A stretch of DNA of 33,731 nt from the IMG/VR virus record IMGVR_UViG_3300021197_001989, positions 1 through 33,731 of that record; one strand, written 5' to 3'. The stretch is from a virus. Every line of letters starts with the position of its first letter. The first letter of the stretch is position 1. Shown piece by piece: positions 658 through 24,286 of this stretch. Below the pieces are notes generated by a model, which saw nothing but the letters and a program-made list of their open reading frames with translations, was not told the origin of the DNA and made no database searches. A program made the translations under genes and the position numbers.

Positions 658-3615
658 ATGGCACGAACAAGATTAAATGGAAAACACCAAGTAGATATCG
701 AGTTAGTCGATCAGGTTGGTGGTGGCGTACATGATACTTACGCTGAAGCGGCTGCAGCAGGTGTTGCAGGTTTAGGTCAATTGACTACCGCTATGTTCGA
801 TATGAGCGCATTGGCTTTGAGTGCGAGCATTTCTGATTACAGATCTGCAGCAAACAACGATGCAATCGTTAACTACGGAATGTTGATTCAGGAAGTTGCT
901 GATGAAGCAGCTCTTAGAGTCGCAGCAGATGCATCTTTGGCGCAAGAAATTGCAGACGAAGAAGCAGCAAGATTGGCCGCTGATGGTTCAATCGACACAC
1001 GTATGGCTTCTGAAGAAGCAGCAAGAGCAGCAGGCGATTCTTCGCTTACAACTCGTGTTGCAGCAGAAGAAGTTGCACGTGCAAATGCAGATGCATCTAT
1101 CGTAACAAAATTTGATGCAGATATCGCATCTGAAGAAGCAGCTAGAATCGCTGGCGATGCTTCCCTTACAACTCGCCTTGCAGCGGAAGAAGTTGCTCGT
1201 GTAGCTGATGTCGGTTCTATCGACACTAGAGTTGCAGCTGAAGAAGTCGCTCGTGCGGCAGCTGATGCTTCTATCGTTGTTAAATTTGACGCTGATATCG
1301 CAGCTGAAGAGGCGGCACGTATCGCAGCAGACGGTTCTCTTGAGACTCGCCTTGCAGCGGAAGAAACTGTAAGAGCAGCTAATGTTGGTTCTCTTGATAC
1401 AAGAGTAGGCGCAGAAGAGGCAGCAAGAGCTGCAGCTGATGCCTCTATCGTAACAAAATTCGATGCAGACATTTTGGCCGAAGAGACAGCGAGAATCGCT
1501 GGAGATGCATCTTTAAGCACTCGTATGGGTGTTGAAGAAGCTCGTGTTGACGCAATTCTTCTTTCAGCAGATGCTGATAAGGATAGTTTCGTTGAAATCG
1601 TTTCTTTGATTAACGCAGTTGATCTTACAAACGATAACGCATTGGCATCGGCTGTTTTGAGCCTTTCTAATGTAGACTCTGCTGAAGAAGCAGCACGTAT
1701 CGCTGCAGATTCTTCTCTTGAGACTCGTCTTAGTGCTGAAGAGGTTGCTAGAGCAGCTGCTGATGGCTCCATCGACACTCGCATGAGCGCAGAAGAGGCA
1801 GCTAGAGCAGCAGGTGATTCTTCACTTGACACTCTTGTCGCAGCACTTCAAGCTGATGTTGATCAAAACGAAGCAGATTCAGATGCTGCTGAACTTTCTC
1901 TAAGCACTCGTGTTGGAGCGGAAGAGGTTGCTCGTGCAGCTGCTGACACTTCTCTAACAACTAGATTGGCTGCAGAAGAAGTAGCTAGAGCAGACGGTGA
2001 TTCATCTTTGACAACTCGTCTTGCTGCAGAAGAATCAGCGAGAGCTGCTGCAATTTCAACTCTTGAGTCAACACATGACCTTGAGATGCTAATTGAAGAA
2101 ACAGCTAGAGCGGCTGGTGATGCATCATTAGATGCAAAAATTGATTCAGAAGTTTCTACACTTGTAGTTGCTGATGCTTCTCTTACAACTCGTCTTGCTG
2201 CAGAAGAGGGAGCACGAGCTGCTGCCGATACTTCTCTAGAGACACGTTTGGCCGCAGAAGAAGCTGCAAGAGCCGCTGGCGATAGTTCAATTGATACCGT
2301 CGTAGCTGCACTTCAAGCTGATGTTGACCAGAACGAAGCTGATTCCGATGCTGCGGAGCTTTCTTTAAGCAACCGTGTCGGTGCTGAAGAGGCTGCAAGA
2401 GCTGCAGGTGATCTTTCACTTACAAACCTTGTTGCTGCACTTCAAGCTGATGTTGATGGAAATGAGGCTGACTCTGATGCTGCTGAACTTTCACTCCAAA
2501 CTCGTTTGGCTGCTGAAGAAAGCGCAAGAGCAGTTGCTGATGCTTCTCTTGAAACCAAGATGGACGCTGCTGACCTTTCGTTAACAACTCGTCTTGCTGC
2601 TGAAGAAGCTGCTAGATTGGCTGGCGACAACTCAATTGACGTTGTTATGGCAGCAATCCAAGCTGACGTTGATCAGAATGAGGCAGACGCTGATGCAGCT
2701 GTCGCTTCTATCGACATCTCTATGGCTTCTGAAGAAGCTGCGAGAATCGCAGGTGATGCTTCCTTGACAACCCGTTTGGGTGCTGAAGAAGCAAGAGTAG
2801 ATGCAATCCTTAATGCTGCAGATGCAGACAAGGACACATTTGTCGAGATCGTTTCTTTGATCAACGCTGTTGACCTTACAAATGATAATGCTCTCGCATC
2901 TGCTGTAGCATCCCTCGCTCTCGTTGATTCTAACGAAGAGGCAGCTCGTATCGCTGCAGACGCTTCCCTAACCACACGTTTGGCTGCGGAAGAAGGTGCA
3001 AGAGCTGCTGATGTTGCTTCTATCGACACCAGAGTAGGCGCAGAGGAAGCTGCTAGAGCAGCTGCTGACGCATCTATCGTCGTAGTAATGGGTGACATGC
3101 AAGCTGATATCGATGCTAACGAAGCTGCATCTGATGCTGCTGAACTTTCTTTGACAACCCGCTTGGGTGCTGAAGAAGTTAGAGCTGCTGCTGCAGAACT
3201 TTCACTTGAAACCCGCCTTGCTGCGGAAGAGAGTGCAAGAGACGCTGCTGACATCTCAATTGATGCTGCTATGGTTGCAATGCAGGCAGACATCGATGCT
3301 AACGAAGCTGACGCTGACGCAGACTTGTCCGGTATCCACAATAAGTGGCAGGCACACGTATTTGCTCCAGAGCCAGTAACTGTAGCAATGGACCACATCT
3401 TCATGTTCGGTGCCCAAGGCCACGGACCAATGAAGCAGTTGTCTTATGTAGCTGTTAACGGTATGATCATGGCAGAAGTTGTAGGTGGAGCAGGTGACTT
3501 TGAGTACCTTCTTGACCCGAACGGCGACATTGATGGTATCAAATTCAAGATGGAAATCATGGAAGGCGACCGTATCTCTTACTTCGGTGAAGTAGTATAC
3601 AACCTTCAGTCATAA
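658..3615 (+). CDS. Long repetitive phage fibre protein, probably a trimeric coiled-coil shaft with a beta tip
   Basis: This 985-residue protein is probably a fibre of the tail or virion surface. Residues 1-80 are a non-repetitive head starting MARTRLNGKHQVDIELVDQV. Residues ~85-885 are a shaft of roughly 28 degenerate units of about 18 residues, of the form EEAARAAGDSSLTTRVAA. Some units are replaced by a longer insert of the type LQADVDQNEADSDAAELSL. A ~65-residue module beginning EEARVDAIL occurs twice, at about residues 293 and 710. Residues ~890-985 form a non-repetitive C-terminal domain with VNGMIM, DFEYLL and a GDRISYFG end, like the small beta-sandwich tips of phage fibres. It has a clear SD and ends at a strong terminator. 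The family is inferred from architecture. Receptor specificity cannot be read. Confidence 0.8.
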   Translation: MARTRLNGKHQVDIELVDQVGGGVHDTYAEAAAAGVAGLGQLTTAMFDMSALALSASISDYRSAANNDAIVNYGMLIQEVADEAALRVAADASLAQEIADEEAARLAADGSIDTRMASEEAARAAGDSSLTTRVAAEEVARANADASIVTKFDADIASEEAARIAGDASLTTRLAAEEVARVADVGSIDTRVAAEEVARAAADASIVVKFDADIAAEEAARIAADGSLETRLAAEETVRAANVGSLDTRVGAEEAARAAADASIVTKFDADILAEETARIAGDASLSTRMGVEEARVDAILLSADADKDSFVEIVSLINAVDLTNDNALASAVLSLSNVDSAEEAARIAADSSLETRLSAEEVARAAADGSIDTRMSAEEAARAAGDSSLDTLVAALQADVDQNEADSDAAELSLSTRVGAEEVARAAADTSLTTRLAAEEVARADGDSSLTTRLAAEESARAAAISTLESTHDLEMLIEETARAAGDASLDAKIDSEVSTLVVADASLTTRLAAEEGARAAADTSLETRLAAEEAARAAGDSSIDTVVAALQADVDQNEADSDAAELSLSNRVGAEEAARAAGDLSLTNLVAALQADVDGNEADSDAAELSLQTRLAAEESARAVADASLETKMDAADLSLTTRLAAEEAARLAGDNSIDVVMAAIQADVDQNEADADAAVASIDISMASEEAARIAGDASLTTRLGAEEARVDAILNAADADKDTFVEIVSLINAVDLTNDNALASAVASLALVDSNEEAARIAADASLTTRLAAEEGARAADVASIDTRVGAEEAARAAADASIVVVMGDMQADIDANEAASDAAELSLTTRLGAEEVRAAAAELSLETRLAAEESARDAADISIDAAMVAMQADIDANEADADADLSGIHNKWQAHVFAPEPVTVAMDHIFMFGAQGHGPMKQLSYVAVNGMIMAEVVGGAGDFEYLLDPNGDIDGIKFKMEIMEGDRISYFGEVVYNLQS

Positions 3616-12976: not shown

Positions 12977-15900
12977 ATGGGCTTTTTTCTAACAGAGAGA
13001 GAAATCTTAGGCTTATTTGACAATGAGTACGATCGGTCCAATGTTAATTTGGATATTCAGCAAATCATTTCCAGCAATTTGGCGTTTGACACTGAATCGG
13101 CAACCACAAGAAAAGTTGATGAGATCCCGCCAGAGAATATATATTTTAATGAACTGATTGGCATTGAAGCCATAGGTACTGCACAAACTAAAAAACAATT
13201 CCGTCAAGCTAACCTTAGTGATTTTGACAGAGTAATCTTTGATTTATATAATCCAAGCGGAGGCGGAGAAGGCTTCGCGTCAGGCGCAAGATTTCTAAAT
13301 CCTACAATTTTTATTAATAAATTTTTGGCACCAAAGGTTGAAGAGCTTGTAGACTTTGTAAAATTAGAAGATCTTGAGAAAGAAATCCGCAACTATTCAT
13401 TGATCATGAAATCAAAGGGATACAAGTTTTGGACACCATATTCAATTCCATCCGGCGCACCCTTTGATATAGAGCAGAGAATTAATACGTCCGAAAAAAG
13501 TGCAGCAATCGCGATCTATGGAAACCAGAGTGGCCCATACGATGTTTTAAATATTAGGCAGGGAAATAGTACGCCATCTTCTAGGTTTATTGAGAGGAAG
13601 TTTTCTTCTATTGCTTCTAAATTTGTTAGAACAACGTCTCTTGCGCGGCGAGGCCCATCCGAAGATAAGAAGAATGTTGAAAACTATCTCTTTCTAGCAG
13701 GAAGCACGCCTCACCACGCACTGGAAAATATTTTTACAGACAAAAGATACGGCATTGTACTGGAACCTTCTAATCCAGAAATTTTCACACAGGGTACATC
13801 ACTTCAGCCTTCGGTCGGAAACAAAATAGAGCTTTCGAGAAAATATCCGGCTGTCTCTCCTTTAGCTGGATCAGTTCCGTTTTACACCAAAAGTCCTCCA
13901 ACTGTTGGTGCACCCACAGGATTAGGAGTGCCACGAATAAATATACAGGAAGATGTCGAAAAAATCCTTTCTGCTATTGAACGTATCGAGAAAAACATAA
14001 AAGTAAAAAAAGACTCTAAAGATTCCAATATAACTGTTAGCCTTTTCAAAGATGTATATAAGCCAATAGAATTAGCAAAAATTATAATGGCTCGCTGGGC
14101 ACTAAGAACCCTAGCAGATCAGATAAGGCAAGTGCGAGAGCAAATTAAAATATCTGACAACGACGACGCAGTGATTGCTCTTTCAGAGGAGATACTTGAT
14201 GCCATAAAAAGAGAAAGAATAGCAGACCCAGACTTTGATGCCTACGATCCTAAAACGACAGAAAATTTATCAAATCTTGTACAAAGGAGGGTAGAAATTT
14301 CCCCTCAATGTTATTTGATAAATAATATTATTGAAGCTGCAAAATTGAATCGTTTGAGGTTGAACATGAGCCAGCCAGCAGTTGGCCCAACAGCAGATAT
14401 TAGATATGAGAAAGTTAGAATTGTGAGTGATAGCGGCAAAAACTCTGCCGCGCTGATCAACAAGCTAACAGTAAACAAGAACCAATCCAAGATGCTTGAT
14501 CTAAGACCGACAGACATATCCAATTTATATCCATATTTGAGAATATATAAAACAGTATTTGATCAGCAGGGCAGAGTAGAAAAAGAGGCAGAGTTTAAAT
14601 TTCCTAATTTAACAAACGTCCAGAGCACCAATAAGGCGATGGAAGTAATTGGAAATGTAACCAACCAATATACACAGGAATATGGTATAACATCATTTAA
14701 TTGGAGCTTTGTTGGATCCGATCCCTTTTCATATGCTAATGATATTGACGCGACACTTTCATTGCATTTTAATGATTTTGAACAGCTTGTATTGGAAAGA
14801 AAGACAATCTACGATGGCGAGGAAGTAAGGTATAGGCTGTTGGACTTGATATCAATTTCCGAAAAGGAGCTAAAAGAGTTAAATAAGTTAGGCTCTGGGT
14901 CACCTTTATCGAAAACAGATTTTAAATATGATATTAGGGTAGATGTGGGCTGGAATGGTCCAAATTCAGAAAAGGTGAGAGGATTCAGTGCTGAAGATAG
15001 CATAAGGACTTTTTACCTCGCGATGACTGATTATGATATTGGTTTTAACCAAGAAGGGTTTTTTGAACTTATTATAAATTACAAAGCAAGACTAGAACAG
15101 GCCATGTATGATAGGAGGACAAATATATTACAACCTCCAAAATCAGAGAAAAAAGAAATAGAAAGATTGCAAAAAGAAATATCGGATTTAAAGGCGAGCA
15201 ATGAAGGTAATCAAAATAAGAACATAGGCTTAATAAGGGGGCTTGAAGACAGGGTAACGGAATTACAGTTTGAATTAAAGTCTGATACTTTCTCAAATGT
15301 GGTTGCCTTCTTGATAGAAAATGGTTCAATATTTTCAGAAACGGTAACGCCTGCGCAGATGTTTGGTTATGAAACAGAAAATGTAAACTTGCAAGACAAT
15401 GTAAGTACTACTCCAAACCAGAACTCGGAAGCTTTTGCAACACTGAAGGCAGTAGTCAATTTGGATGTCACATCACCGAGCCTCGGACTCTTTGATTTCG
15501 CTAACGCCGCATTTCTGGGGAGTAAACTCTATAGCATGGCTACATTCGACGAGGCAGACGCAAAGAAGCAGAGAATGTTGAATATTCCAGAGGAGCAATT
15601 GAGGATTATTCCTAAAAAAGAAAATGGAGAATATATTTTAAACTTTTTCTTTCTGGGTGATCTTATTGAATCACTATGTCGTAATGTCTTCAAGGAAGAC
15701 GCATCAAGGACACCCGCTGAACAAGATTTTATAAACGATATTAGAATCATTACAACAGATTTTCTTATATATGATCCAAAAAAACTAGAGTCAAAAACAT
15801 TAAATAAGGTAAACATATCAGACATACCAATATCAGTTGATTTATTTTCAAGTTTCTATTTTGAAAAGGTTATAAAATATAATGTAACCAGATATTCTTT

Positions 15901-16789: not shown

Positions 16790-18043
16790 ATGCCAATTTA
16801 CAGATTAGACGCAAACAATAACTTAAATTCTTCAGAGCTTTTCCATAGAAGAATTCTTTATAAGTTTTTTGCCCTATCATTCGATGGGGAGACTCCACAG
16901 TTGCAGGCTTCTGGTATCAAGGATTACTGGAATTTTGAGAACTATTTTTATGGTAAAGTGAATCAAAACTTTGTTCCCGTTCTTCCGGTTACAGATAAGT
17001 TAAAACAAATAGAAGGTCAAAACGGCAACGTCCTTGCGTTTGATTTCGTTGCAGAATCCTTTGCTAAGTTTAAAAGTTTCTTTTCCGTGCCATTGAGGGT
17101 GGGCCGATTATCACCCGGAACTCCCATATCGGATCCTATGCCAGTCAAAGGATTCCAAAACAATGAACTGGAGTATCAAGATTATATAATTTTCTTTATG
17201 GATCAATTCAATAATTTCATTTTCAATTCCGGCATGGCCAGTAAAATAAAAGGCCCAAAAGAATATACAAGGCGGTTCTTTGAGTTTTATTTTTCTGATG
17301 ATATCCCCATCTTGAGAAGTAGTTATTTTCTCTCTTTTAGGAATCCCGGATATAGCTCTGGACTCTCTTTGATGCTGGCAGACTTAGATGCCTCAAATGA
17401 TAAGATAAAGATGGAGTTTATTGAGTCTCCAAACTTTGAGTTTTATAGGAAAGCAGCAATCAATTCGGGCTTTCAGATTGATAAGAACGTTCCATGGAGA
17501 ATCAACATAGATCTAAAATCTCCAGTAATTATAGAAAAATATTTCTCTGGAGCGTTTCAACAAAGAGATTTTGTTTCAGACGTATTCTCTTCTTATTTTG
17601 TAAAGGCATACAGGGGCGAGATGAATTCTATAGTGGCTGCAATATTTTATGGATATAGAAATTTGTATGACAGATTACCAGAACCTCCGGAGACAAACTG
17701 TATTGATGGCAACGAGCCAATAGAGCCAACTTTAGAAAGCGTAAGGTCATCATTCAACACCACTTATTGGAGTGGTAAATACATTGAGATGAAAAATAAG
17801 GAAGCAGGAAAGCCATTTGGTGAACAAAAAATACAATACATCAAGAATAATGCTTTTGTAAATCGCTCTCAAAACTTCGAAGACTATATAAATTCCAAAT
17901 TTAAATTGCCATGGCTTGAGCCCGGTTCTCTTGTCTACGAAAAGATAAAAAGAGAATTTAAAGAAAGTGGAGAAAAAGTACTTGACAATTTCTCTGAACA
18001 TGTTAAAATAATAGTAATGAATTCAATTGAATCAATTTACTGA
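16790..18043 (+). CDS. Virion structural protein of unknown function
   Basis: 417 residues from ATG 16790, after a 57-bp gap that holds no clear promoter. The protein is rich in aromatic residues (many F and Y), for example RRFFEFYFSDDIPILRSSYF, and has no membrane segment or signal peptide. It ends 17 nt inside the following polymerase gene and is the last gene of the tail block. A baseplate or tail accessory role follows only from location. No family was recognised. The 3' end carries a promoter (17982-18009). Confidence 0.65.
   Translation: MPIYRLDANNNLNSSELFHRRILYKFFALSFDGETPQLQASGIKDYWNFENYFYGKVNQNFVPVLPVTDKLKQIEGQNGNVLAFDFVAESFAKFKSFFSVPLRVGRLSPGTPISDPMPVKGFQNNELEYQDYIIFFMDQFNNFIFNSGMASKIKGPKEYTRRFFEFYFSDDIPILRSSYFLSFRNPGYSSGLSLMLADLDASNDKIKMEFIESPNFEFYRKAAINSGFQIDKNVPWRINIDLKSPVIIEKYFSGAFQQRDFVSDVFSSYFVKAYRGEMNSIVAAIFYGYRNLYDRLPEPPETNCIDGNEPIEPTLESVRSSFNTTYWSGKYIEMKNKEAGKPFGEQKIQYIKNNAFVNRSQNFEDYINSKFKLPWLEPGSLVYEKIKREFKESGEKVLDNFSEHVKIIVMNSIESIY
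17982..18009 (+). promoter_or_regulatory. Sigma70-type promoter for the polymerase gene
   Basis: TTGACA (17982-17987), 16-bp spacer, TAAAAT (18004-18009), with an extended TGT just before the -10. It marks the border between the tail block and the replication block. Transcription would start about 10 nt before the TTG at 18027, leaving a very short leader for that start and a normal leader for the TTG at 18051. Confidence 0.65.
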
Positions 18044-19235
18044 GGGCCGCTTGTTATTTCAAACACTTGATGACAAAAAAGAGTGTATAGGTATTTATTT
18101 GGATGGTGAGCTTTCGTTTAAAGACACCTTGCCAGAAGACCTTTCTCATTCTTGGTCTTATGCTTCTTTCTTGCAAAATCTTGATATTGAGTATGCCAGA
18201 ATATATTGTGGAGGGAAGACACTCAAAGAAGCTTGTCCAGAGGCCCTAGAAGCCCGCTTACAAAGCGTAGAAAATAAGTTTGCATCTTTTATCAAGTCTT
18301 TTAATACGGCCCATGTGTCGCTAAATGAGAACTGTTTTTACGATTTAGTCCCTAAAAAGTTCCTTTTAGAGTGGTGTTATGTGCGAGATCTAATCTCCAA
18401 GCACGTATTTGATACCTATGAAAAGCCAGAATGCTATGACTATACAGTTGATCTTGTAAGGGTGATAGAGGAAATTAAATATAATCGTTTAAATATTGAT
18501 AAAAGCTCTCTATCTTTGTACAGAGCAAAGCACAGGAAGTTTTCAAAGAAGCTTAAAAAAATAGACCCTTATTGCAGGTTTGATGTTTGGGGCACGAAGA
18601 CAGGACGCTTGACAACTATTAAGAATAGTTTTCCTATTTTAACCCTCGACAAGGAGCTTCGCTCTGTTGTAAAGCCGAAGAATGATTACTTTGTTGAGCT
18701 TGACTTTAATGCAGCAGAACTAAGAACGCTGCTTTCTCTGCAGGGAAAGGCACAACCAGTGGAAGATATGCACCAGTGGAACGTAAAAAACGTTTTCAAA
18801 GGAGAGATTACAAGAGACGAAGCGAAAAAGAGGATATTTGCTTGGCTTTATAATCCAGACAGTAAGGATGCTCTTTGCGATTTTGCATACGATAGAGACT
18901 CGGTGCTTAAGAAATATTACACACAAGGGCAAGTGACAACCTTTTTTAACAAAAAGATTCCTTCTGAAGACAGAACAGCACTGAACTATATCATTCAGTC
19001 GACTTGTGCCGAAAATGTTTTGAGACAAATGATAAAGGTATCTAATTATTTAAAAGGAACGAAGTCTTATGTTGCTTTCCCGATCCATGATTCTATTGTA
19101 CTTGACTTATCTGTCGAAGACAAAGAAAAATTACCAGAATTGCTGAATATCTTTTCGGACACAGAGCTTGGAAAATTCAAAGTGAACGTCAGTGTTGGAA
19201 AAGATTTTGGAAATCTTAAAAAATTAGAGGTTTAA
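18027..19235 (+). CDS. polA: Minimal family-A DNA polymerase, no exonuclease domain
   Basis: 402 residues. The family-A catalytic motifs are all present: TGRLTT at 192-197; motif A with ELDFNAAELR (Asp226); motif B as R263-x3-K267-x3-F271-x3-Y275 in TRDEAKKRIFAWLY, exactly the spacing of the E. coli O-helix; and motif C PIHDS (His354, Asp355). The protein lacks room for both the 3'-5' and the 5'-3' exonuclease domains and has a short fingers region. The start is a TTG. TTG 18027 overlaps the previous gene, and TTG 18051 is preceded by GAGGG and is an equally good candidate. Proofreading may be supplied elsewhere, and a 5' nuclease is encoded at 24921. A second polymerase (DnaE) begins at 33185. 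Confidence 0.9.
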   Translation: MNQFTEGRLLFQTLDDKKECIGIYLDGELSFKDTLPEDLSHSWSYASFLQNLDIEYARIYCGGKTLKEACPEALEARLQSVENKFASFIKSFNTAHVSLNENCFYDLVPKKFLLEWCYVRDLISKHVFDTYEKPECYDYTVDLVRVIEEIKYNRLNIDKSSLSLYRAKHRKFSKKLKKIDPYCRFDVWGTKTGRLTTIKNSFPILTLDKELRSVVKPKNDYFVELDFNAAELRTLLSLQGKAQPVEDMHQWNVKNVFKGEITRDEAKKRIFAWLYNPDSKDALCDFAYDRDSVLKKYYTQGQVTTFFNKKIPSEDRTALNYIIQSTCAENVLRQMIKVSNYLKGTKSYVAFPIHDSIVLDLSVEDKEKLPELLNIFSDTELGKFKVNVSVGKDFGNLKKLEV

Positions 19236-19236
19236 T

Positions 19237-20064
19237 ATGAATATTGTAGGATTAGGTGACGCAGGTTGTAATATTGCTGAAGCATTTACGCAGTACCCTC
19301 AATATAAAATTTTTAAAATAAATGTTGACAACGAGGGTAAGGGGTGTTATAATATACCTATACTTGAGAAACCAGAGGAATATGAATCTTATTCATACCC
19401 CAAGATTAAAACATTTTTTAAAGGAATGAAAGGAGATGTGGTTTTTATAGTTGGAGGATCTGGTAAGATATCTTGCGGATCTCTGAGAATCTTGGAAACC
19501 ATAAAGAACAGAAACATATCAATTTTATATATTAAGCCCGACGATTCCCTTCTCGATGACGAGTCAAAAATGATTGACAAGCTTGTATACAATGTGTTGC
19601 AAGAGTATACAAGGTCTGGAGTTTTTGAAAAGATGATGATCGTATCAAATGCAGAAGTAGACAAAGTTATTGGTGGCGCACCAATCATTGGATATTTTGA
19701 CAAGCTTAATGAGTTGATTGTTCCGACAATCCATATGATGAACTATTTTTCAAACAACAAGCCGGTCTCTGGGTCAATCCCTAAACCAAAAGAAACACAC
19801 AGGATATATACAGTCGGTCTCTTTGATACGAAAAAAAATGAAGAAAAAATGTTTTTTTCCCTTGACAACAGTAGAAATAAGTGTTATATTTATGGAGTAA
19901 ACGAAGAAAAGTTAAAGACAGATAAGAACTTAATGAAGACAATTAAAAAACAAATGGATTCAAAAAGAGAAGAAAATGTAAGCGTAGCATACGCAGTATA
20001 TTCAACGGAATATGAATATGATATTGGGTATGTTATTTCAAGAACCCCTAATATTCAAAAATAA
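19237..20064 (+). CDS. Divergent FtsZ/tubulin-superfamily protein
   Basis: 275 residues. The N-terminus MNIVGLGDAGCNIAEAF matches the FtsZ nucleotide-binding start GxGxxGxN (G5, G7, G10, N12), and a KINVDN strand follows as in FtsZ. At 66-84, VVFIVGGSGKISCGSLRIL sits where FtsZ has VFIAAGMGGGTGTGAAP, so the tubulin signature loop is degenerate. Residues 135-170 (IVSNAEVDKVIGGAPIIGYF, then FDKLNELI) align with the FtsZ IPN.KLLKVL...DAF...N.VL helix. The T7-loop NxDxxD is not visible (SGSIPKPK instead), so GTPase activity may be lost. Its neighbours are polA and ssb. It starts 1 nt after polA with a GAGG site. It could make filaments or be a non-polymerising relative. Confidence 0.75.
   Translation: MNIVGLGDAGCNIAEAFTQYPQYKIFKINVDNEGKGCYNIPILEKPEEYESYSYPKIKTFFKGMKGDVVFIVGGSGKISCGSLRILETIKNRNISILYIKPDDSLLDDESKMIDKLVYNVLQEYTRSGVFEKMMIVSNAEVDKVIGGAPIIGYFDKLNELIVPTIHMMNYFSNNKPVSGSIPKPKETHRIYTVGLFDTKKNEEKMFFSLDNSRNKCYIYGVNEEKLKTDKNLMKTIKKQMDSKREENVSVAYAVYSTEYEYDIGYVISRTPNIQK
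19325..19353 (+). promoter_or_regulatory. Consensus extended -10 promoter inside the FtsZ-like gene
   Basis: TTGACA (19325-19330), 17-bp spacer, TGT plus TATAAT (19348-19353), a perfect sigma70 match. It lies about 90 bp into the coding sequence, so transcripts from here would lack the FtsZ-like start and mainly serve ssb and downstream genes. Confidence 0.6.
19862..19890 (+). promoter_or_regulatory. Extended -10 promoter upstream of the ssDNA-binding protein gene
   Basis: TTGACA (19862-19867), 17-bp spacer, TGT plus TATATT (19885-19890). It lies in the 3' part of the FtsZ-like gene, about 265 bp before the ssb ATG, so the ssb mRNA would have a long leader that includes the hairpin at 20089. 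Confidence 0.65.
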
Positions 20065-20155: not shown

Positions 20156-20926
20156 ATGGCATTAGACATCACAAAAATCCGAGCACGTCTCGATTCAGTA
20201 AAAAACAATGGTAAAGCTGGAGGATCATTCTGGCGACCAAAAGACGGAACACAAGCAATCCGAATTGTCCCAACACAGGACGGCGACCCCTTTAAGGATT
20301 ACTGGTTCCACTACAATTTAGGCCCAGACCAGAAAGGTGGCCTGCTTTGTCCTAGAAAAAATCACGGAGATGATTGTCCTATTTGTAATTTCAAAGACCA
20401 GCTTTGGAAAGAATTCAATGAAACACAGGACCAAGATACGATGAAGATGGCAAAAGACTTGTCTCCACGTCAACGTTTCTTTTCACCGGTACTTGTTCGT
20501 GGAGAGGAGGCCGAAGGCATCCGTATCTGGGGATATGGCAAGGAAGCTTATACTTCATTACTAAATCTTGTTCTTAATCCAGAATATGGAGATATTACAG
20601 ACATCGAAGAAGGTACAGACTTGAGCCTTACATATGGAAAACCACCCGGAGCCAGCTTTCCAAAAACAACCTTAACTCCACGACGACGAACCAGTCCTCT
20701 GTGCGACGAGGCTCTTGGCGGAGATGCAGAATGTAATCGCTTGCTTGAGAACATTCCAACCTTCGATACCCTGTTTCAGGTAAAAACCACAGAAGAGGTA
20801 CAATCTGCTCTAGATGGTCTCATGAATCACCTAGAGGGTGAGACTGGAACCTCCGTATCCGAAATTGTCGTTAGCGAAGACACTCCAAGCGTCCTCGCGG
20901 CATTTAATGAGCTAACAGGTAACTAA
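20156..20926 (+). CDS. ssb: Single-stranded DNA-binding protein (T4 gp32-like)
   Basis: 256 residues. The core resembles gp32: WRPKDGTQAIRIVP near residue 22, then a zinc-binding loop with Cys65, His70, Cys74 and Cys77 (CPRKNHGDDCPIC), followed by DQLWKEFN. The C-terminal ~50 residues are acidic (VSEIVVSEDTPSVLAAF), as expected for the tail that recruits replication partners. It coats the template strands during replication and recombination with UvsX and the helicase. SD GAGGAAAG precedes ATG 20156. A hairpin lies in the leader and a terminator-like repeat follows the stop. Arginine codons are nearly all CGN, unlike the preceding two genes. Confidence 0.88.
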   Translation: MALDITKIRARLDSVKNNGKAGGSFWRPKDGTQAIRIVPTQDGDPFKDYWFHYNLGPDQKGGLLCPRKNHGDDCPICNFKDQLWKEFNETQDQDTMKMAKDLSPRQRFFSPVLVRGEEAEGIRIWGYGKEAYTSLLNLVLNPEYGDITDIEEGTDLSLTYGKPPGASFPKTTLTPRRRTSPLCDEALGGDAECNRLLENIPTFDTLFQVKTTEEVQSALDGLMNHLEGETGTSVSEIVVSEDTPSVLAAFNELTGN

Positions 20927-20935
20927 CCATCCTCC

Positions 20936-20971
20936 GACCGCAGGGAGGCATGGGTTTATAGATGCCTCACT
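20936..20971 (+). terminator. Stem-loop terminator, left copy of a 36-bp direct repeat
   Basis: GAGGCAT (20945-20951) pairs perfectly with ATGCCTC (20962-20968) around a 10-nt loop, followed by ACTATTTTT. The whole 36-bp segment recurs at 21511-21546 with one substitution in the loop. Confidence 0.75.
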
Positions 20972-20994: not shown

Positions 20995-21495
20995 ATGACA
21001 ACAGAAAATACAACAACAACTACACTCACAACTGCAACTGAAGGTGCCAATGCCACTGTCCATTATCGTGGTACTTTGGAGGACGGTACAGAATTTGATA
21101 ACTCTCGTACACGAGAAGAGCCAATCACCTTTACTGTCGGCTCAGGTCAGATGATTTCCGGCTTCAACGATGCTGTAGACGGTATGACAGTGGGAGAAAC
21201 AAAAACAGTTACTCTCGCTCCAGATCAAGCATATGGAGAAGTCAATCCAGAAGCACAGACTACTTTTCCCAAGGCTGGATTCCCAGAAGGTCTTGAGCTT
21301 ACAGAAGGTATGGCTATCCCGCTAAAGACTCCAGAAGGTCGAACCTTAATCGGTCGCTTGACAGAGCAACAAGAGGAAACCGTTACTGTGGACTTGAATC
21401 ACCCACTAGCAGGACAGACCCTACAATTTGAAATTGAGCTTGTAGAAGTTACAACCACTACCACCACTTCAACCGATGAGGAAATCGCTACCTAA
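20995..21495 (+). CDS. FKBP-type peptidyl-prolyl isomerase (SlyD/FkpB-like)
   Basis: 166 residues. The FKBP domain starts near residue 15 and includes VHYRGTLEDGTEFDNSR, FTVGSGQMISGFNDAVDGM and MTVGETKTVTLAPDQAYGE, then an inserted flap (residues ~85-130) as in SlyD-type enzymes, and ends LQFEIELVEV. The active-site aromatic and hydrophobic residues of the FKBP pocket look present (Y23, F35, F46, I55). It would catalyse proline isomerisation in folding proteins and may act as a chaperone. Threonine-rich tails of about 13 residues lie at both ends. There is no signal peptide, so it is cytoplasmic. SD AAGAGGA. It is bracketed by near-identical 36-bp stem-loop repeats. Confidence 0.9.
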   Translation: MTTENTTTTTLTTATEGANATVHYRGTLEDGTEFDNSRTREEPITFTVGSGQMISGFNDAVDGMTVGETKTVTLAPDQAYGEVNPEAQTTFPKAGFPEGLELTEGMAIPLKTPEGRTLIGRLTEQQEETVTVDLNHPLAGQTLQFEIELVEVTTTTTTSTDEEIAT

Positions 21496-21510: not shown

Positions 21511-21546
21511 GACCGCAGGGAGGCATGGGTTTACAGATGCCTCACT
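21511..21546 (+). terminator. Stem-loop terminator, right copy of the 36-bp direct repeat
   Basis: Identical to 20936-20971 except for one loop base (C for T), with the same GAGGCAT/ATGCCTC stem, followed by TTTTATTT. It follows the FKBP stop codon by about 15 nt and precedes the 21575 promoter. Confidence 0.75.
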
Positions 21547-21574
21547 TTTATTTCAAATTATTTTATTTTTTTGC

Positions 21575-21603
21575 TTGACAGCAACCACATGATATGTTAT
21601 ATT
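21575..21603 (+). promoter_or_regulatory. Strong extended -10 promoter for the DUF262-like gene
   Basis: TTGACA (21575-21580), 17-bp spacer, TGT plus TATATT (21598-21603). It lies in non-coding DNA directly after a terminator, so it is the clearest genuine promoter of the set. The transcript would have a leader of about 140 nt before ATG 21749. Confidence 0.8.
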
Positions 21604-21645
21604 ATTATTACAAACAAGGAAGGATACTAAAACTTTTTCCCTAGA

Positions 21646-21721
21646 GAGTGCGGGGATAGTGGCACTCAACTAACCAATGCCATTTTGAATTTGTAGACGC
21701 TTGTAAGTCTTATGATTCAAA
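21646..21721 (+). promoter_or_regulatory. Structured 5' leader with mutually exclusive hairpins
   Basis: Hairpin A pairs GAGTGC (21646-21651) with GCACTC (21662-21667). An alternative stem pairs AGTGGCA (21658-21664) with TGCCATT (21678-21684) and would exclude A. Hairpin B pairs TTTGAAT (21684-21690) with ATTCAAA (21115-21121 offset in the next hundred, i.e. 21715-21721), plus an inner AGAC/GTCT stem (21695-21698 with 21707-21710). The arrangement could be a regulatory RNA or a protein-binding leader. It does not match a tRNA or a riboswitch class I know. Confidence 0.4.
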
Positions 21722-21748
21722 TACTAATAACAAAAAAGAGAGGTAAAC

Positions 21749-23119
21749 ATGGCAGATTATAGAACAACAGTAGAGAACTATTTTGATTATATTGTGGGAT
21801 TCTCACATTCCAGCTTAAAATGTGACGGTGAAGATCGATGTATCACCGCCATGCACAGTAAGGGCTTTGAAGTAAAAGTCATTCCAACTGTCTATATTGA
21901 TCGCGACTTTCAACGCAATTTCGTTTGGAATCGCGCCCGAAGACGCGCCTACAACAAGGCAGTCATGAATAAGAAATCAGGTACGCCAATCACCATCGCA
22001 TGTATCGAGAGCTGCCTAGCTTATGCAAAGTCTGTCGCTTGTGAGCTTTCAGTTCTGAAGTTCGAAGAGCTTTTGGAATTAGGCTATAAGTACATCAGCC
22101 TAGATGGTCAAAATCGTTCTTTAACCATGCAGGAATTTATTGAGAAGGGCACTGGCTTGACTATGGGAGACACTGTTTATGATTGCTCCATCACAGGAGA
22201 GTCGCATGATTTATCAAACTGTCTTTTGAAAGACTTTGAGCCGACAGTCCGTCAACAGTTCTTGACAGGAACAAAGGTTCCCGTTACTGTTTATACTGGA
22301 TATACATACCCAGAGCTTGCAGCGGAATTCCGAGACCTGAATAGTAGTGATAACTTAAACCCCATGGAGTGGAGAAACTCTTATCAAACATGGTTTGCAG
22401 GTTGGATTCGAGAACAAACTAGTAAGCATAGTGATCTATTCAAATCTTGTATGAGCAAGGGTGAGTATGAAAAAATTTCCAACCGAATGACTGATCGCGA
22501 ACTCTATTCAATATATAGTTTATATCTCGGCGGTGTTTTCAAGAGCAATATGAATGACTCTGTTTTTGATGCTCGTACTTGCAACATCAAGAAAAAGTTT
22601 ATTCTAGATAGATTGTATGAGTGCGGTGAATCAATCACACAGCACGATACTCGCTTTCCATACGACATGTCGGCATGCAACCGTGTTGACAAGATTGTAG
22701 GAAACCTAACTATGGCTGCTCCAGAATTGAAGAAACTTGGTAGCGGCAGCAGGCTCCTTAAGTGGCAAGTTTGGGCCTTCTTATCAGTTTTTGAATGGAT
22801 TCACGACAAGGGACACACAATCAAGAATGCTGATATACCACAATTCGTTCTGCTGGTTGATACTGTCCTAAAGAAGGCTCGTCACGACTCGCGGCAACAA
22901 CAATCAATCGATGAAAAAGCCAAGGGTGATGATCTTCCAAAGCAGCAATATTTCTACGGACAGTTAGAGACAATCGCAGAAAAGGGTTCTCGCGATGGAA
23001 TCAAAAGCACAATTGATGATTTGATGACAACTAACCTGAATCAGCTCCCAGTACAATTATCATCGCAAAGCCTACCTCTAGAGGTTGACTTTACATACGA
23101 AGACGAGTTTACATACTAA
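21749..23119 (+). CDS. DUF262 / DGQxR-type (ParB-like) protein
   Basis: 456 residues. Residues 114-130, KYISLDGQNRSLTMQEF, contain the DGQxR motif (D119, G120, Q121, R123) typical of the ParB/sulfiredoxin-like fold of DUF262 and related proteins. About 70 residues later come VPVTVYTGYTYPELAAEFRD and LNSSDNLNPMEWRNSY, like the iF..lN....Ls..E element of DUF262. The C-terminal half is helical. DUF262 forms the N-terminal domain of GmrS, part of a modification-dependent restriction enzyme, and occurs in other defence or DNA-processing proteins. No HNH (DUF1524) partner domain was seen here. It has its own promoter, a folded leader and a terminator, so it is a self-contained unit. Function is unknown. 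Confidence 0.65.
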   Translation: MADYRTTVENYFDYIVGFSHSSLKCDGEDRCITAMHSKGFEVKVIPTVYIDRDFQRNFVWNRARRRAYNKAVMNKKSGTPITIACIESCLAYAKSVACELSVLKFEELLELGYKYISLDGQNRSLTMQEFIEKGTGLTMGDTVYDCSITGESHDLSNCLLKDFEPTVRQQFLTGTKVPVTVYTGYTYPELAAEFRDLNSSDNLNPMEWRNSYQTWFAGWIREQTSKHSDLFKSCMSKGEYEKISNRMTDRELYSIYSLYLGGVFKSNMNDSVFDARTCNIKKKFILDRLYECGESITQHDTRFPYDMSACNRVDKIVGNLTMAAPELKKLGSGSRLLKWQVWAFLSVFEWIHDKGHTIKNADIPQFVLLVDTVLKKARHDSRQQQSIDEKAKGDDLPKQQYFYGQLETIAEKGSRDGIKSTIDDLMTTNLNQLPVQLSSQSLPLEVDFTYEDEFTY

Positions 23120-23127
23120 ATCGCAAT

Positions 23128-23152
23128 GCCCCCCTATTTGGGGGGCTTTTTT
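23128..23152 (+). terminator. Rho-independent terminator after the DUF262-like gene
   Basis: GCCCCCC (23128-23134) pairs perfectly with GGGGGGC (23140-23146) around TATTT and is followed by six T. It ends the single-gene transcript before uvsX, only 15 nt upstream of its start codon, so uvsX must rely on read-through or a promoter inside the preceding gene. Confidence 0.9.
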
Positions 23153-23167
23153 ATTTAAGGAGAAAAC

Positions 23168-24286
23168 ATGGCAAGAAAAACAACTTCATCTGCTGGAAAA
23201 CTTTCAATGGCAGACATGAGAAAGATGATCAATAAGAAAGCGGGCATGGATGTCGCCCATGACTTAAAGGAGGCAAACCCAACAGAAGTTACCCAATGGA
23301 TCCCTACAGGCTCTCGATGGCTTGATTCAATTACCTGCCGAGGAAAGTATGCGGGAATCCCAGTTGGAAAAGTGTCCGAAATTGCTGGATTGGAGGCGAC
23401 AGGTAAGTCCTATATGGCAGCTCAAATCGCGGCTAACGCTCAAGAAATGGGGATTGATGTCGTTTATTTTGATTCAGAATCAGCGATTGATCCCTCGTTT
23501 CTTGAAAATGCTGGCTGTGATTTGACAAGGCTTCTTTACGTGCAGGCACAGTCGGTTGAGTTTGTGCTTGAGACTATTGAAGACCTCTTGGCATCAGAGA
23601 ATCAGATGTTGTTTATTTGGGATTCTTTGGCTCTAACACCCGCTGTTAGTGAAGTTGAAGGCAGCTTCGATCCCATGTCGCAAATGGCGATGAAGGCTCG
23701 TATTCTTGCACGAGCGATGTCAAAACTTGCACTGCCAATTGCAAATGCGAATGCAACACTGCTTGTCTTAAATCAGCTGAAAACAAACATTACCCGTAGC
23801 CCTTCAGAGGCTATGACTACACCGTATGTCACTCCCGGAGGGAAAGCCATGGCATATGCATATTCTCTTCGTGTGTGGCTAACAGGTCGTAAAGCAAAGG
23901 CGAGTTTCGTTCTTGATGAAAACGGATTTCGAATTGGGTCTGAAGTAAAAGTCAAACTTGAAAAGTCTCGTTTTGGAACCGCTGGCCGCCGATGTAACTT
24001 CCGAATCTTGTGGGGAGGAGACAGTGTAGCAATTCAAGATGATGAATCTTTGTTTGATGCAGTGAAATCTTCGGACAACATTCTTCAGTCTGGTGCTTGG
24101 TACACCATGGTTTTCGAAGATGGAACAACAGAAAAGTTCCAAGCAGCTAAGTGGGTTGAGAAGATGCAAAACGATAAATTTCGTCAGCGTGTTTATCAGA
24201 TTATTGATGAGGAAATCATTATGAAATTTGATCAGCGTCAGGGCAGCGCATCCGATTTCTATGACTCTGAAGAAGAAACAGACTAA
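23168..24286 (+). CDS. uvsX: UvsX/RecA-family recombinase
   Basis: 372 residues (T4 UvsX is 391). Walker A is GLEATGKS at residues 74-81. Walker B-like MLFIWDSLAL follows, and LNQLKTNI corresponds to the RecA strand before loop L2. The substrate loop region DPMSQMAMKARILARAMSKL is typical of phage UvsX rather than bacterial RecA. The C-terminus is acidic (DFYDSEEETD). It catalyses strand invasion for recombination-dependent replication together with the ssDNA-binding protein. SD AAGGAG at 23157-23162. Arginine codons are mostly CGN. No mediator such as UvsY was recognised in the window. Confidence 0.92.
   Translation: MARKTTSSAGKLSMADMRKMINKKAGMDVAHDLKEANPTEVTQWIPTGSRWLDSITCRGKYAGIPVGKVSEIAGLEATGKSYMAAQIAANAQEMGIDVVYFDSESAIDPSFLENAGCDLTRLLYVQAQSVEFVLETIEDLLASENQMLFIWDSLALTPAVSEVEGSFDPMSQMAMKARILARAMSKLALPIANANATLLVLNQLKTNITRSPSEAMTTPYVTPGGKAMAYAYSLRVWLTGRKAKASFVLDENGFRIGSEVKVKLEKSRFGTAGRRCNFRILWGGDSVAIQDDESLFDAVKSSDNILQSGAWYTMVFEDGTTEKFQAAKWVEKMQNDKFRQRVYQIIDEEIIMKFDQRQGSASDFYDSEEETD

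Follow-up and report, generated by a model that had tools for sequence, protein, structure and literature searches.

An HNH-less DUF262 gene at an exchange hotspot between the ssb-like and uvsX genes of uncultured phages

Introduction

DUF262 NTPases take part in bacterial defences, where they work together with a nuclease, and we know of no DUF262 protein that works without a partner. What, then, might a DUF262 gene do in a phage, when it lacks the nuclease domain and has no nuclease gene beside it? This question is raised by an IMG/VR record (IMGVR_UViG_3300021197_001989), the whole of which, 33,731 bases, was analyzed and is called the window here; the features of the locus described below lie on its plus strand. 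Genes for a tail sheath, UvsX and an exonuclease point to a contractile-tailed phage. The record is probably a genome fragment, and its source is an uncultured, probably marine, phage.

Results

The DUF262 open reading frame starts with ATG at 21749, ends with TAA at 23119 and encodes 456 amino acids. It sits between an FKBP-type peptidyl-prolyl isomerase gene (20995..21495; named by eye), which has homologs in 27 related slots and is an accessory gene there too, and a gene for a uvsX/RecA-like recombinase (23168..24286; phrog_97 UvsX, E = 4e-57). Further upstream lies an ssb-like gene (20156..20926) which is kept in relatives. Its product resembles phage gp32-type ssDNA-binding proteins and has a zinc-finger-like CPRKNHGDDCPIC motif, both recognized by eye. 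Some other genes of the window may be mentioned: a 275-aa protein (19237-20064) with glycine-rich GLGDAGCN and GGSGKISCG segments is reminiscent of FtsZ/tubulin, for which PDB sequences, searched with a profile, yielded weak FtsZ matches only (E about 0.1); a 985-aa protein (658-3615) with degenerate EEAARAADASL-type repeats is likely to be long and to form a coil or fibre; and a short separate ORF of 402 aa (18027-19235) has a DNA polymerase I-like palm region (named by eye).

The initial annotation had recognized LDGQNR and a later DUF262 element in the 456-aa protein, and both are found, at residues 118-123 and 193-205 (EFRDLNSSDNLNP), within the coordinates it gave. Moreover, the three motifs described for GmrS (PMC4619093), QR, DGQxR and FxxxN, are all present in this order, according to an alignment of 16 family members and a check in 19 proteins. 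The QR motif (Q55-R56; 21911..21916) is invariant in the alignment, with R56 present in all 19; D119, G120 and R123 of the DGQNR motif (residues 119-123; 22103..22117), a predicted NTP-phosphate site whose equivalent in BrxU is DGQQR (PMC8565348), and the FxxxN motif (F194-N198; 22328..22342) are invariant in all 19. Taken together, R56, W60, D119, G120, R123, F194, N198, R209 and R221 do not vary in the 19 proteins. A profile search for DUF262, proposed in the initial annotation, succeeds for the family but not for the single protein: PF03235 (GmrSD_N) matches 13 of the 16 HNH-less members (best E = 1.3e-11), whereas the 456-aa protein alone obtains 18.0 bits (E = 0.0033), below the curated cut-off of 33.2 bits. 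The protein alone also matches phrog_2598 (E = 1.2e-6). Judged by these profiles, it is a divergent homolog of DUF262/GmrSD_N (ParB/Srx fold) rather than a curated member.

As had been stated earlier, no DUF1524 partner accompanies the gene; neither DUF1524/GmrSD_C (PF07510) nor an HNH domain was found in the whole record, a fragment of 33.7 kb. The C-terminal part of the protein (residues 206-440; 22364..23068) is helical, matches the linker region of BrxU and stops short of the HNH domain. Since the HNH motif of BrxU is located at residues 474-475 (PMC8565348), the 456-aa protein corresponds to BrxU minus its nuclease domain.

Relatives were difficult to find. Neither 50,697 phage records nor IMG/VR yielded a match when searched with the single sequence, an alignment of two sequences detected nothing beyond the locus L020, two scans of bacterial genomes yielded no homolog, and PDB sequence searches no relative. 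One of the alignments (A4) matched only Cas9 HNH domains in PDB, via its HNH-bearing rows, and these hits were discarded. The family emerged only once the cyanophage DUF262-HNH proteins S-SSM7 gp35 and Sf-FS3 joined the query profile, which then reached 47 viral loci. These fall into two groups, one with DGGNR and a C-terminal HNH domain, the other with DGQNR, a length of about 380-456 aa and no HNH domain; the window protein belongs to the latter. It has relatives at 18 further phage loci, with an identity of 79% at L020 and of 19-25% elsewhere, and these are HNH-less without exception and keep the core motif residues. The missing nuclease is, therefore, a trait of the clade, which has a conserved C-terminus of its own (YYF..R..R). 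Consequently, we no longer regard the C-terminus as the remains of an HNH domain, and a one-off acquisition was likewise dismissed once further carrier loci emerged. Identity to the L020 gene is 84, 88 and 59% at codon positions 1, 2 and 3, respectively, and as the differences fall mainly at third positions, the protein is under purifying selection. Over the 19 loci, DUF262 and UvsX distances correlate (Mantel r = 0.60). However, at L185 and L189, UvsX is 95% and the DUF262 alleles are only 31% identical, which suggests, on sequence grounds, that one allele was exchanged for another at this position.

An AlphaFold model built with the 16 HNH-less relatives reached a pLDDT of 77.6; an earlier run with nine mostly HNH-type sequences was unusable (pLDDT 33). 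Compared with known structures, the model resembles BrxU (Z 7.1), SspE (6.7) and CDP/CTPgS-bound ParB (6.2), and VIA-align placed model residues 30-430 on BrxU 1-422. The best viral structural matches (BFVD) are GmrSD_N proteins (E = 1e-8). A Foldseek search against PDB returned nothing at E < 0.001, and only its ranking (ParB, BrxU, SspE) was used. Matches to F1-ATPase cover just the helical C-terminus, a common helix arrangement, and were rejected. Because the Z values are under 8, the fold match is supportive only alongside motifs and profiles. Taken with these, the model supports a predicted ParB/sulfiredoxin-type fold; a lack of structural similarity to the ParB/DUF262 fold, which would have refuted the initial annotation, was thus not observed.

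The gene is part of a cassette (about 21550..23150), whose borders are defined by comparison with relatives lacking it. The gene-less loci L002 (UvsX 97% identical), L005 and L006 are similar to the window up to 21549-21553, where a hairpin ends, and again from 23146-23168 onwards, at the ribosome site and start of uvsX. The hairpin occurs twice in the window as a 31-nt repeat (CCGCAGGGAGGCATGGG..GATGCCTC), first at 20938..20968 and again, with a T-rich tail, at 21513..21552 (repeat 21513-21543), where it forms the left breakpoint. Its 13-nt core has two exact copies in the 33,731 bases, while none is expected. In many relatives, the same 31-nt hairpin is seen at slot-gene borders, on the coding strand only.

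Downstream of the second copy, a sigma70-type promoter (TTGACA-17-TATATT, its −10 element preceded by TG; 21575..21603) matches the consensus at 11 of 12 positions, and behind the ORF an intrinsic terminator (7-bp G+C stem and T-run; 23128..23152) follows, which is also present in L020 and in the ORF-less cassette of L040. Both signals, claimed previously, are thus confirmed in the sequence and support an independent transcription unit. However, contrary to what had been thought, the promoter is not unusual for this operon: eight promoters of at least 11/12 are found in the window, all on the plus strand, compared to about 0.9 expected, so that a promoter as such is unremarkable here. These near-consensus sigma70-like sequences are at 13224, 17982, 19325, 19862, 21575, 25877, 32693 and 33132, several of them inside ORFs. 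Furthermore, such a promoter is present at only 2 of the 17 DUF262 loci and is, therefore, a trait of this lineage's cassette and not of the gene family. The leader (21610..21748), with a ribosome site GAGAGG at about 21738-21743, has about the length proposed (139 nt), but the special folding ascribed to it is not supported: its fold is not better than those of shuffled sequences (z = −1.0; 32 of 200 shuffles were as good), and it matches no Rfam family. Compared to L020, the leader is 90% and the hairpin region 97.5% identical, versus 59% at third codon positions.

The hairpin is invariant ahead of different cargo. Hairpin and promoter precede DUF262 in the window and L020, an L7/L12-like gene in L007, a ParB-like gene with a methylase in L036, and no gene in L040. 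L040 retains the equivalent of 21513-21649, including the 5′ part of the leader, and the terminator without the ORF; this stretch (L040:5796-6000; hairpin, promoter, leader start, terminator) represents the scar of a deletion or, alternatively, a short RNA unit. The cargo of L007 (2081-2638) encodes a ribosomal L7/L12 C-terminal domain protein (PF00542, E = 2e-22). These junction comparisons imply gain and loss at the stem-loop/promoter junction among relatives. Swapping probably occurs by recombination at hairpin-promoter junctions, a role suggested by the breakpoints only. With its own promoter and terminator, a position between conserved genes and its absence in close relatives, the cassette qualifies as a phage moron. 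It is similar, by description, to the promoter-stem-loop cassettes (PeSLs) proposed for T4-like phages (Arbiol 2010; Comeau 2014), in which, as far as they are outlined via PMC4503421, swapped modules meet at a stem-loop with a host-type promoter behind it, as here.

To place the gene in a wider context, slots anchored by the ssb-like gene on the left and uvsX on the right were collected (174 loci, dereplicated to 120 slots, 84 of them non-empty). The DUF262 gene is rare among relatives having both anchors, being present in 1 of 77 near and 8 of 76 far ones. In nearly all carriers, it lies between the ssb-like gene and uvsX, with UvsX identities down to 53%; L118 carries it without a uvsX or ssb homolog nearby. 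The gene downstream of it varies (ClpP-like, FA-hydroxylase, an unrelated protein, or uvsX). Among the 120 slots, 17 contain DUF262, 10 GHKL ATPases (PF13589 in three of four clusters), a type linked to restriction-modification (PMC2292703), and 15 methyltransferase/endonuclease/ParB-like modules. The latter include D12 adenine methyltransferases (PF02086) and MunI-like endonucleases (PF11407; above cut-off in L179), whereas ParB-like proteins were mostly recognized by motif, with profile support in L081 only. A MunI-like endonuclease lies beside a D12 methyltransferase at L067:650-2110 and L179:4251-5593, probably as a type II restriction-modification pair. The three conflict classes never share a slot (0 versus 6.1 expected in the 84 non-empty slots, P = 5e-5; for uvsX-ascertained loci only, 0 versus 4.0, P = 0.005), a statistic which in both cases ignores phylogeny. 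In contrast, the other occupants FKBP, ClpP (PF00574) and FA-hydroxylase (PF04116) co-occur freely, in 17 of 42 conflict-class slots versus 27 of 78 others. L148 and L160 show a swap of DUF262 for GHKL, with 83% identical DNA on either side. Thus, a large group of uncultured phages generally exchanges genes at the ssb-uvsX slot, a hotspot, and the link to genome conflict that had been drawn from the occurrence of DUF262 in anti-phage systems is backed by the genes replacing DUF262 in relatives.

Several characterized systems are comparable. NsnA (PADLOC PDLC03877), the DUF262 subunit of Menshen, an anti-phage system, has a similar size (model of 385 positions) and likewise lacks DUF1524. Its model matches 14 of the 16 family members (best 5.6e-17) over the DGQNR and FxxxN core; however, the 456-aa protein gives no match even at E = 1, the L020 ortholog reaches only 1.1e-4, and NsnA is a subunit of a defence system whereas its relative here is phage-borne. 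NsnB had no match in 10 carrier records, which are fragments, in a search that detected the positive control; NsnC had none either, but there no control was detected. The model of PD-T4-2 subunit A (PADLOC PDLC04027), a DUF262 protein without DUF1524 (PMC10952713), matches 6 of the 16 members (best 1.1e-9) but not the 456-aa protein. The type IV enzymes GmrSD and BrxU share the three motifs and the predicted fold, yet they have a DUF1524/HNH domain or partner, absent from the phage protein and its record; DGQNR instead of DGQQR and low identity set the phage protein further apart. In ECOR17, a type IV system cannot do without an HNH-less GmrS1, which by description also has a GmrS-type ParB_n domain and is required by an HNH-bearing partner (PMC12373910); unlike the phage gene, which has no nuclease neighbor, this GmrS1 is host-encoded beside the GmrSD2 nuclease. 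Finally, S-SSM7 gp35 and Sf-FS3 are homologous in the N-terminal part (hhalign E = 7e-10), but differ by DGGNR, the C-terminal HNH domain and other genome locations.

Discussion

Neither the DUF262 domain nor the swapping of phage cassettes is new, and stand-alone DUF262 subunits have been described for defences made up of several genes. Within the collections and literature covered, an HNH-less virus-borne DUF262 family without partner genes is new, and so is DUF262 alternating with restriction-modification and GHKL genes in a single slot. The cassette is a self-contained accessory moron in the ssb-uvsX hotspot, with a product distantly related to Menshen NsnA. As relatives carry restriction-modification or ATPase genes at the same spot, it probably holds a swappable DNA-conflict gene; to the complete reading, an active NTPase in DNA conflict that is swapped as a cassette, we give about an even chance. 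In such a scenario, the cassette's promoter would drive synthesis of the protein during infection, and the protein would bind and hydrolyze NTP in the DGQNR pocket, as the pocket of BrxU hydrolyzes NTPs even with its HNH motif mutated (PMC8565348). NTP use may let it engage DNA or a DNA-bound complex (the DUF262 pocket of SspE senses DNA modification; PMC10952713) and interfere with non-self DNA, be it of co-infecting phages, mobile elements or the host. A partner or nuclease encoded elsewhere would probably act together with it, and relatives would exchange the conflict job between unrelated systems, probably via hairpin-promoter recombination. A bolder version is rather doubtful: with the nuclease-free NTPase as its only gene, virulent phages might possess an exclusion system that is complete in itself. 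It would then belong to a set of unrelated weapons (type II restriction-modification, GHKL ATPase, DUF262), mutually exclusive, which a large phage group rotates through the one slot beside its recombinase gene. Against the conflict reading, the attachment to ssb and uvsX (Mantel correlation) is compatible with a recombination helper as well, the 456-aa protein itself is below the PF03235 cut-off and has no NsnA match, and the carrier records are fragments of genomes that may hold a partner nuclease elsewhere.

How do other explanations compare? The protein might serve counter-defence, a nuclease-less subunit that enters and poisons host DUF262 complexes (GmrSD/BrxU, GmrS1-GmrSD2 doublets, Menshen). 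DUF262 enzymes are indeed dimers or hetero-complexes, BrxU forming an interlocked dimer (PMC8565348) and HNH-less GmrS1 having to team with GmrSD2, and T4-like phages have several GmrSD inhibitors in one hotspot (PMC12373910); a protein ending just short of the HNH start position and alleles replaced on a constant background, as in an arms race, would also fit. However, the NTPase motifs, which a passive decoy could do without, are invariant in 19 proteins; such conservation implies a need for NTP use and disfavors a purely passive decoy. Further, the two scans of bacterial genomes found no homolog, and the MunI-like endonuclease among the alternative occupants is no obvious counter-defence gene, so that we consider this role unlikely. 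Another idea is that of an orphan subunit in two-part restriction, with a phage DUF262 sensor and a nuclease from elsewhere in the genome or from the host. Characterized DUF262 systems do include a nuclease or second subunit (PMC10952713), and fragmentary carrier records could hide one; yet the downstream neighbor is inconsistent among carriers, and searches of carrier records detected neither NsnB nor GmrSD_C, making such an arrangement quite improbable.

The constant position in almost all carriers, even at the lowest UvsX identity, and the similarity to ParB could point instead to a helper of recombination or replication, i.e., a ParB-like NTP switch acting with SSB and UvsX on the phage's own DNA. 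Against this, about nine of ten relatives with both anchors manage without the gene, restriction-modification or GHKL cassettes take its place, alleles are replaced while UvsX is nearly constant, and the L118 gene has neither anchor nearby. The alternative occupants favor a conflict role at the DNA level over core DNA processing, which the initial annotation had offered besides superinfection exclusion and inhibition of host GmrSD. We rate the helper as decidedly improbable. That the gene is a functionless, decayed remnant of a DUF262-HNH gene (homing-like or GmrSD), as the cyanophage homologs might suggest, is hardly credible: judged from the sequences, this is largely refuted by the codon-position pattern of purifying selection and by the HNH-less form with its own C-terminus common to the whole clade.

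A long-lived nuclease-less viral family maintained by selection with an intact NTPase site, and swapped with restriction-modification and GHKL genes, suggests that phages use such proteins against competitors or host defences. In addition, the ssb-uvsX slot is a concrete place to seek more unknown phage conflict genes. Many unknown occupants, among them ParB-like proteins recognized by motif and GHKL ATPases, are contained in the slots L002-L081 and L148-L227, and these may be conflict genes as well.
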